In this document: piece by piece, positions 15,625 through 52,758 of the stretch
How the letters are laid out: each line of letters opens with the position of its first letter
Position numbering within the stretch: the stretch's first letter is position 1
Origin: Clostridia bacterium
GTDB lineage: Bacteria; Bacillota; TC1; UBA5767
Direction of reading: 5' to 3'
NCBI GenBank assembly: GCA_030625965.1
Contig: DAOUPV010000001.1
Coordinates: 46,569 to 110,568 of the forward strand
Length of the DNA stretch: 64,000 bases
Made by a program: the position numbers and the translations under genes
The notes under the pieces: model-generated
Told to the model about the DNA's origin: nothing
Database searches by the model: none
What the model saw: only the letters and a program-made list of their open reading frames with translations

Positions 15625-15656
15625 GATGTTCAGCTAAACGGCTGAACATCTTTTTT
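15625..15656 (+). terminator. Rho-independent terminator after the mscS-like gene
   Basis: GATGTTCAGC-TAAACG-GCTGAACATC-TTTTTT. Confidence 0.9.
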
Positions 15657-15668
15657 GATGAGTTAAAT

Positions 15669-15698
15669 TTGACATAATTGGACAATATTAGATATAAT
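15669..15698 (+). promoter_or_regulatory. Near-consensus SigA promoter for the riboswitch leader
   Basis: TTGACA-N18-TATAAT just upstream of the c-di-GMP-I aptamer. Confidence 0.75.
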
Positions 15699-15720
15699 TT
15701 GAATATATAAGTAAAGGATT

Positions 15721-15821
15721 GCTTTTCAGCGATAAAGGCAAACCCGTCGAAAGGCGGGGGCGCAAAGCCATTGGGCCTACGTACCGTAAGGTATAGGGCA
15801 GCCGGTTGCCGAAGGGGAAGC
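15721..15821 (+). ncRNA. Cyclic di-GMP-I (GEMM-I) riboswitch aptamer
   Basis: AAAGGCAAACCCGUCGAAAGGCGGGGGCGCAAAGCCAUUGGGCCUA...AGGGCAGCCGGUUGCCGA matches the GEMM-I core; P1 GCUUUUC/GGGAAGC closes it and is followed by U6. Confidence 0.93.
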
Positions 15822-15978
15822 TTTTTTGATGCAAAAATATCACATGTTACTTTTTTGCGATTGGCATTCAAGGTGGACCAGATCTGTCAGTCGAGTAAAG
15901 ATACAGAAATACCGGTTATCTACATTATTAATTCAGAGAGGGGTGAGAGTAAGAGACAACTATAGTCAATTGTGAAGT

Positions 15979-16058
15979 TGATTGAGGGAATGATGAAGCA
16001 TGTCTTGTATATGGGCACTTGAGGTATGTGGAGTTAGTAGTGCAACCGACCTTTCTTT
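15979..16058 (+). ncRNA. Cyclic di-GMP-II riboswitch aptamer, copy 1
   Basis: AUGAUGAA...GGGCACUUGAGGUAUGUGGAGUUAGUAGUGCAACCGACC matches the c-di-GMP-II core; stem GCAUGUCUU/GAGGUAUGU and pseudoknot GCACU/AGUGC. Confidence 0.92.
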
Positions 16059-16061
16059 TAT

Positions 16062-16140
16062 GAGAAGGGGAGCGATGAAATGTATCTTTTAATTGGGCAC
16101 TTTAGATACATGGAGCTAGTAGTGCAACCGACCTTTCTTT
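16062..16140 (+). ncRNA. Cyclic di-GMP-II riboswitch aptamer, copy 2
   Basis: GAUGAAAUGUAUCUUUUAAUUGGGCACUUUAGAUACAUGGAGCUAGUAGUGCAACCGACC; same architecture with a covarying stem AUGUAUCU/AGAUACAU. Confidence 0.93.
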
Positions 16141-16170
16141 GAACATGAGTTTGAAGAAAGGAGAATAAAA

Positions 16171-17103
16171 ATGAATATGAAAAATATGACAACAAGATTG
16201 CGACAATTTTTGTCAATCGTCGTATCGCATATTTTTGTTCTCGGTACATATTGGCCCGCAATGGCCTCAGATAGTTTGAATGCGATTACTCCGATCTCTG
16301 ATTCAGTTAAAGAAACAAATACGAATCAGTACGGTCATTCAGTATGAAAATAGAGAGAATCTCTATATCCGGTTTATTTCTGCATTGCCGGAAGGTCTTT
16401 TGAATAGAATCGTTTCAGAACCGGGAAAGAATAGCGAAGTGTTGGGTGCAGGGAATCAAGCTATATCTGTGTACGGATGTTTCAACGGTGGTTGATTACT
16501 GAGAAGGCAGATCCCTGAACTCAAGATCCGGACGGAGGTGGCAATCGAAAACCTGATGGTGGCGACCGTACATGTAATCCAGGAGGTGGTGACGGTACGC
16601 GGAATCCTGATGGTGGAGATACGCAGAATCCAGACGGCGTTGATGGATCACAGAATCCCGACAGTGGTGACGGATTGCAGAATCCTGATAGTAGTGGCAG
16701 AATGCAACATCCCGATGGTGATGGGCCGCAGAATCCGGACGATGGCAGCTATGGTACGCTGAAATCGACGGTGGCGATGGCACCCAGAACCTTGACGGAT
16801 GTGCGGGCACTCTGGACCACGATATGGATTGTAGCATTCGGAACCCTGATTGTGGCACATGGATGAAGAATCCCAATTGTGGCAATGGAACGCAGAATCC
16901 TGATGGCGGTGATGGAACGCGGAATCCTGATGGTGGTAATGGGACGCAGAATAGAGCTGGAATGCAGAAATCCGGCGGCTGCGGTGGCATCCAGAACCCT
17001 GAAGACTAACTACACGGCGTTACTCAGAATCTTGATGGCGGCGAGGGTTTTCAGAGCCCTGACGGTGGCGGTGGCATCCTGAGCCAAGATGAGGAAAACG
17101 AAT
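16171..17103 (+). pseudogene. Degraded gene for a secreted repeat protein (QNPDGGDGT-like 9-aa repeats) downstream of the c-di-GMP riboswitches
   Basis: Good SD (AAAGGAG) and signal-peptide-like start MNMKNMTTRLRQFLSIVVSHIFVLGTYWPAMASDS; coding then moves between frames (16280..16495, 16522-16766, 16767-17009) with interrupting stops including an in-frame TAA at 17007. Confidence 0.7.
16522..17075 (+). repeat. Degenerate about-27-bp tandem repeats encoding (N/D)PDGGDGTQ-type units
   Basis: Recurrent cagaatcctgatggtggtgacgg-like units at about 24-27 bp period. Confidence 0.85.
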
Positions 17104-17377
17104 AGAAATAATAACACCTGGAAGAGACAGAAGAGCTGAAAAGGAAAATAATTTTATAGTTGTAATTATGGAGGAAGAGCCAGCACTGGCTGTTCCTGAA
17201 TCTGAAATGGATGACGAGCTCCCCCCTGTACAAGAACCAAGGCTTTACCATATACAGGGGTGGCTCACGAAGGACTGACAGGTTTTTAATGTCAGTCGGT
17301 ACGCATTGTGTAAGAAAAAATATATGCTGATGTTGGATAACCTGTATAAATAAAAGCAAGCAAGCAAGTGAAAAGGT

Positions 17378-52356: not shown

Positions 52357-52539
52357 GTGTCCTCCTAATATAGAAATATCTATATATCTATATAATATAC
52401 TGCGGGTGGCGAAAAGTAAAAAAATTCTCTGTTTTACGGCCTACGTTGTGAAAAAGATAACTTTCTTTAACCTTGCCTTTTGTTGCATAGGGAAGGTTAT
52501 GAATATATATTAAATGTACAAATGAATATAACGTGGATG

Positions 52540-52715
52540 AGAAGTTGTGGGAGAGACATGAAAATGCGCCGAAGAAGCAACCGCTAGAGCGTGCACTCAG
52601 CGGGAAACTTTCAGGCAAAAGGACTGCGACTAGACACGACCTCTGGAGAGGATTGCGAAAGCAAGACACCAAAGGGGAAAGCCATATGGTAATCTCTCAG
52701 GTAAAAGGACAGGGG
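52540..52715 (+). ncRNA. Glycine riboswitch, tandem aptamers
   Basis: GGGAGAGAC...GCGCCGAAGAAGCAA...UUUCAGGCAAAAGGAC then a second aptamer with CUCUGGAGAGG...CACCAAAGGGG...UCUCAGGUAAAAGGACAG; upstream of gcvT. Confidence 0.92.
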
Positions 52716-52758
52716 AAAAGAGCACTAGTAATATTGCTGTTTTCCCATGTCCTTTTTT
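52703..52758 (+). terminator. Riboswitch-controlled terminator overlapping the 3' edge of glycine aptamer 2
   Basis: AAAGGACAGGGGAAAA...TTTTCCCATGTCCTTTTTTT. Confidence 0.8.

Follow-up and report, generated by a model that had tools for sequence, protein, structure and literature searches.

The window analysed here, a stretch of 64,000 nucleotides, contains a leader in which one c-di-GMP-I aptamer is followed by two c-di-GMP-II aptamers, and we regard this mixed-class architecture as nearly certain. We propose that the two unrelated riboswitch classes work in series on one transcript, class I as a transcriptional OFF switch and the coupled class II pair as a translational ON switch, such that expression would follow a band-pass or pulse response to c-di-GMP. 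The sign of class I, the coupling of the class II aptamers and the dose response are the parts of this reading that we infer, and taken as a whole we judge it about evenly poised between right and wrong.

The leader is set apart from the preceding MscS-like gene by that gene's intrinsic terminator on the forward strand (15625-15658), composed of the hairpin gatgttcagctaaacggctgaacatc and a T-run; the palindrome was reported on the reverse strand, at 15650-15625. All features of the leader lie on the forward strand as well. The sigma-70 type promoter TTGACA-N18-TATAAT that a sequence-only reading had placed ahead of class I is found at 15669-15698 with 12/12 matches, and promoter-like sites with 11/12 matches occupy the equivalent position in two related leaders, one on contig C141 of the same genome and one in the sister species UBA5767. 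The c-di-GMP-I aptamer (15727-15813) is matched by cmscan over the full length of RF01051 (model positions 1-87) with 85.8 bits (gathering score 35; E 1.5e-15), and it carries the G opening GGCAAA, which we take to be the ligand-contacting residue. Both class II aptamers, in which the conserved GUGCAACCG is present, exceed the RF01786 gathering score of 53.5: the first, II-a (15979-16060), with 69.4 bits (E 1.6e-15 in the genome search, at C40:62547-62628), and the second, II-b (16059-16142), with 83.8 bits in cmscan. The two abut and overlap by 2 nt, and as same-clan overlaps are removed, II-a is absent from the cmscan table. About 30 nt separate II-b from the start ATG at 16171, which is preceded by AAAGGAG. 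The class I aptamer, the two consecutive class II aptamers and the SD/ATG described in the sequence-only reading are thus all borne out.

The question arises as to whether the two classes belong to a single RNA. The spacer between them (15828-15978 in the window) measures 152 to 301 nt among the five mixed leaders that we found, which is long for one leader. Class I might then give a short terminated RNA, or act as a largely constitutive terminator, with the gene mainly transcribed from an unrecognised promoter in the spacer; in the prophage antitoxin genes of C. difficile, a second, stronger promoter does lie downstream of a class I riboswitch (PMC11477304). However, neither the window nor the four related leaders gave a promoter-like match in the stretch from class I to II-a, near-perfect promoters precede class I in the window, C141 and UBA5767, and the long flgB leader of C. 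difficile is co-transcribed with its riboswitch, as judged by RT-PCR (PMC3649979). We therefore hold separate RNAs to be improbable and retain the single transcript. The absence of a convincing ORF between the classes, also claimed earlier, is confirmed by comparison: the sole ORF there in the window is a 50-codon TTG frame that has no counterpart in the relatives. With two riboswitches for one ligand on one leader and no conserved ORF between them, the window has the layout of a bi-mechanism tandem.

Alignment of the spacers reveals an SD-like element, AGAGGGGTGAG at 15936-15947 in the window, conserved as AGGGGTGAG / AGGAGGTG in the window and at matching places in C141 and UBA5767. It lies tens of nucleotides 5' of II-a, without a conserved ORF behind it, and a similar RGGAGGTG is found in the leaders of Geosporobacter ferrireducens (L061) and Anaerovirgula multivorans (L062). 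It may be a standby site for the ribosome or act as a partner strand. Elsewhere in the window, at 52538-52722 of the forward strand, there is an ordinary tandem riboswitch for glycine (60.2 and 38.5 bits), which stands immediately before a gene for a GcvT-like aminomethyltransferase (52747) and a GcvPA-like gene.

The gene under the leader is decayed. A tblastn search with the intact paralogue from C141 delineates the remains of an LPxTG-type surface protein gene at 16171-17340 (genome search match, E 3.1e-5), which retain a recognisable signal peptide and NPDGGD-like repeats, contain in-frame stops, and have an LPYTG in a different frame. At 16171, the 58-codon frame is therefore the beginning of a decayed gene and not an intact gene. 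The C141 protein, by contrast with these remnants, is intact: its 301 aa comprise a signal peptide, acidic repeats and an LPNTG, and it scores above the cut-off of the NCBIfam LPXTG_anchor model. Among four genomes of the family, its only homologues are the C141, UBA5767 and window copies, so that every copy stands under a mixed I/II leader. The leaders differ in the number of class I aptamers, one in the window and two in its relatives within the genus, and the copy missing from the window was presumably lost through recombination between near-identical tandem copies. Both the decay and the existence of intact versions under four aptamers, in the same genome and in a sister species, had escaped the sequence-only reading.

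In the source genome (148 contigs) we counted 5 class II and 11 class I matches, among them the C141 paralogue, where a I-I-II-II leader precedes a surface-type protein gene. The same I-I-II-II order is found in the sister species UBA5767 before a surface-type gene encoding a 289-aa homologue; a contig of the sister genome G002 is 100% identical to Peptococcaceae bacterium UBA5767 across 5,500 nt. Two members of other genera, G. ferrireducens and A. multivorans, have I-II-II before open surface-type protein genes. The check in related genomes for both classes on one strand, suggested along with the original observation, thus yielded further stacks in UBA5767 and these two species, in addition to that of C141 in the same genome.

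Close class II pairs were sought in one genome per species (GTDB r220), which gave 17 stretches, nine of them supported by Rfam; for the 38-18 and FUSI1 loci, one class II copy is in the Rfam table and the other was read from the sequence. The pattern matches L051, L053, L054, L055, L056, L060, L063 and L064 have no c-di-GMP-II match in Rfam and were dropped. With the window and C141, the nine GTDB loci make up the eleven close class II pairs considered below. Class I lies upstream in the same leader in three of the nine (UBA5767, G. ferrireducens and A. multivorans). In a sample of the phylum, class II was found in 107 of 398 genomes, and the class I matches listed for these genomes contain no further true single mixed leader. 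Several candidates were rejected as stacks: in G340 (L068), where class I lies 118 nt before class II, a gene seems to have been lost from an operon; in G181, a 54-codon ORF and a terminator lie between classes 409 nt apart; and in G180, G380 and G341 there are genes between the riboswitches.

A mixed leader could arise by chance adjacency, the window locus being a dying duplicate with riboswitches of no further consequence and leader modules being repeatedly shuffled without functional interplay. The decay of the window gene would fit this, as would G340, where class I and class II came to lie so close apparently via gene loss. The order and strand of the aptamers, however, recur in four other leaders (C141, UBA5767, Geosporobacter and Anaerovirgula), each of which precedes an open gene for a surface-type protein. 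Moreover, class I shares the leader in 5 of the 11 close class II pairs, compared with about 1 in 141 of the remaining class II sites (Fisher p 4e-6, or 3e-4 when counted by lineage, to be taken as a rough guide since the collections are mixed). We consider chance adjacency very improbable.

Some observations on the two classes in other genomes are worth recording. The class I aptamers of Geosporobacter (L061, 4741-4823) and Anaerovirgula (L062, 6860-6941) are of the c-di-GMP-I-GGC subtype (RF03167), unlike those in the genus of the window, and the I/II stack may therefore have separate origins. In three loci (L070 of G180, L071 of G380 and L068 of G340) two class I aptamers precede a gene for a secreted protein, and class II precedes a SipW-like signal-peptidase gene, itself followed by camelysin/TasA-like genes; in G340 the first, secreted-protein gene is gone and class I is left before class II. 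L072 (G341) has three successive genes for secreted proteins of about 150-170 aa, spaced by about 640 nt, of which the first two follow class II and the third class I. In nine genomes (G024, G028, G109, G142, G171, G243, G266, G287 and G393), class II is followed 2.2-2.8 kb downstream on the same strand by class I, a pattern that suggests conserved neighbouring genes under both classes. Finally, two species of the same genus have triple tandem c-di-GMP-I leaders before a secreted protein of 271-287 aa (L043 in G003, and L044 on contig C41 of G002).

How would the class II pair act? In all eleven close pairs, the 3' strand of the II-a P1 helix is complementary to the 5' strand of the II-b P1 helix, as is the 3' strand of the latter helix to the SD region. 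In the window, the first pairing forms a linker hairpin, L (16050-16069; 16050-16057 with 16062-16069, z -2.83 over 16045-16082), and the second an SD-sequestering hairpin, S (16132-16161; 16132-16144 with 16149-16161, z -6.32 over 16124-16176), whose last strand overlaps the SD at 16157-16163. The energy of L ranges from -7.8 to -11.2 kcal/mol across the eleven loci. In ligand-free folding, which leaves out pseudoknots and ligand, the probability of L is 0.69-1.00, that of S 0.85-1.00 and that of the II-b P1 0, and the SD is mostly paired.

The helices L, II-b P1 and S are mutually exclusive, and all three keep their pairing across loci: 74/74 cells are paired in L (positions 1-7), 76/77 in the II-b P1, and 87/88 in S (positions 1-8). 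At position 7 of L, U-A is changed to C-G on both sides in 6 of 11 rows while the third partner, in the 3' strand of the II-b P1, stays U, and S has a double change from C-G to U-A in Proteocatella; these counts, with few independent events and registers set by hand, are support and not proof. An apparent double change at position 3 of L in UBA5767 was rejected, being a register shift of one nucleotide. The II-a P1 keeps 4-7 pairs across loci and is short in UBA5767 (4/8), where the coupling of II-a may be weak.

A U-tract was found 3' of neither L nor S in any of the eleven loci, which points to a translational platform. There is one SD hairpin, after II-b, and none after II-a, hence two like aptamers on one platform; as the aptamers abut and L lacks a following U-tract, a separate expression platform for each class II aptamer was not found in the eleven loci. 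Since ligand binding builds P1, release of the SD, that is an ON response, is predicted, and because neither P1 can form unless L opens, coupling of the two sites is expected. From this folding and pairing evidence, a relay in which II-a and II-b share one translational ON switch is probable.

For class I, the predicted platform (15721-15827) consists of a P1 made by 15721-15727 (GCTTTTC) and 15815-15821 (GGGAAGC), and of a T-run at 15822-15827, as deduced from the U-tract geometry and from folds. The 3' strand of P1 adjoins the U-tract in each of the seven class I copies that occur in stacks, and none of them showed a separate terminator hairpin. A family member (G001) has the same geometry in the class I aptamer before flgB. 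Before this gene, repression by c-di-GMP is the expected direction. Elsewhere in the phylum sample, flgB-linked class I was seen at three loci, two with a separate terminator hairpin and one with neither form, so geometry is no strict guide to function, and across 80 loci it was weakly informative when compared with the type of downstream gene. In ligand-free folds, P1 already forms in part (0.22-0.93), and a GGUA/UACC hairpin sought as a conserved antiterminator is inconsistent across copies; termination might therefore be weak or unregulated. In C. difficile, every functional class I riboswitch is an OFF switch that works by termination, and class II is ON (PMC6366702, PMC3649979, PMC11477304). 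From geometry and this analogy, we think that the stacked class I aptamers probably act as OFF switches by termination.

Alternatively, all the aptamers might be ON switches, bound class I allowing read-through and bound class II releasing the SD, and the leader would then be a multi-step AND gate with a steep, digital response, in keeping with the multi-step or steep behaviour that the sequence-only reading pictured. Adhesin-type targets are usually induced by c-di-GMP, the class I riboswitch Bc2 of B. thuringiensis, which precedes an adhesin gene, is ON (PMC6366702), and the 2022 review of tandem riboswitches considers that doublets of either class sharpen responses (PMC9481103). Such a gate is at odds with the U-tract that adjoins the 3' strand of the ligand-stabilised P1 in 7/7 copies, and with the lack there of a separate terminator hairpin for P1 to disrupt, and we consider it rather unlikely.

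In the reading that we prefer, with opposite signs, ligand would stabilise the class I P1 and, a U-tract following directly, transcription would terminate. The class II pair would act as a relay of five strands: the 5' and 3' strands of the II-a P1, the 5' and 3' strands of the II-b P1, and the SD. Without ligand, the two inner P1 strands would pair as L, and the last P1 strand would hide the SD in S; with ligand, both P1 helices would form and the SD would be freed. Opening of L would release a strand for both aptamers, so that binding at either aptamer should favour binding at its partner. When c-di-GMP is very low, mRNA would be made with its SD hidden and little protein produced; at intermediate levels, or in a pulse after a rise, the SD would be freed while mRNA exists, giving expression; and at high levels, termination would shut expression off. 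The target would be a signal-peptide, LPxTG-type surface protein, decayed in the window and kept in C141 and the sister species.

Such a response depends on the order of the thresholds. Transcriptional switches are usually kinetically limited, which together with the dissociation constants favours class II responding first. The quoted value is 1 nM for the class I aptamer Vc2 and 200 pM for class II (PMC12564702), which would place the ON threshold below the OFF threshold. In a toy model, the peak reaches 0.56-0.92 of the maximum when K_I is 10-100 times K_II, but only 0.12-0.28 when the thresholds are equal. The steep response expected in the sequence-only reading from stacking seems apt for II-a and II-b, with their single platform and strands interlocked in 11/11 loci, but not for the leader as a whole if class I is OFF, as its geometry and the C. 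difficile precedent suggest; in that case a rise would be followed by a fall. Tentatively, and as a somewhat less than even prospect, the leader may be a natural all-RNA incoherent feed-forward element, in which opposite signs, at transcription for class I and at translation for a cooperative class II pair, give the surface protein a band-pass or pulsed output.

The two classes of c-di-GMP riboswitch are usually viewed as opposite arms, for swimming and sticking, on separate genes. The main tables of the 2022 review list I/I, II/II and several mixed-ligand pairs, and no c-di-GMP-I/II mixture (PMC9481103), in agreement with the earlier remark that the three-aptamer arrangement is not a standard one; with respect to these tables, the mixed I/II leader extends the known kinds of tandem riboswitch. 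The review gives 59 doublets and 9 triplets for II/II, mostly in Paraclostridium; as it judged overlapping matches to be false positives and doubted gaps above 300 nt, mixed leaders could be hidden by these filters, and pairs with a 2-nt overlap may have been dropped (PMC9481103). A survey of 2025 pools class I and class II as one family (PMC12452182). The close class II pairs resemble a design of two aptamers on a single platform, which previous surveys may have classified otherwise or left out, and they offer a test of whether sharing P1 strands suffices to couple two aptamers. Both classes on one leader, in at least three genera, likewise provide a compact natural test of non-monotonic (band-pass or pulse) responses by RNA only.

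Several known systems share part of this design. Tandem c-di-GMP-II doublets also place repeated class II aptamers before surface-anchor genes; in the review they are filed as independent riboswitches with several platforms (PMC9481103), whereas here one SD platform is served by interlocked P1 strands. The tandem glycine riboswitch, a cooperative dual aptamer, similarly has two like aptamers on one platform, but couples them by tertiary contacts, while the coupling proposed for the class II pair is via shared P1 strands. Tandem c-di-GMP-I riboswitches, for example Bc3-5 of B. thuringiensis (PMC4759541), repeat class I as do C141 and UBA5767, but contain one class only. In the C. difficile type that joins c-di-GMP-II to a group I ribozyme, a group I intron separates aptamer and ORF; no Rfam match of this kind occurs in the window, where II-b lies about 30 nt from the ATG. 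Another case is that of C. difficile CD2830 and CD2831, under Cdi1_12 and Cdi2_3 (PMC3649979), where a class I OFF and a class II ON switch control surface proteins side by side; there, two genes have one riboswitch each, and here both classes are on one leader. The nearest concept is the SAM-II/SAM-V tandem. In the c-di-GMP leader, the levels of transcription and then translation would correspond, as predicted in silico, to P1 with its U-tract for class I and to the SD hairpin for class II. Both SAM classes are understood to repress, whereas opposite signs are predicted here. As described in the 2022 review, SAM-II/SAM-V is a bi-mechanism tandem, two classes for one ligand on one leader acting first on transcription and then on the ribosome binding site, but its classes share some structural features (PMC9481103), whereas those of the c-di-GMP leader are unrelated and its second stage is a pair of aptamers.
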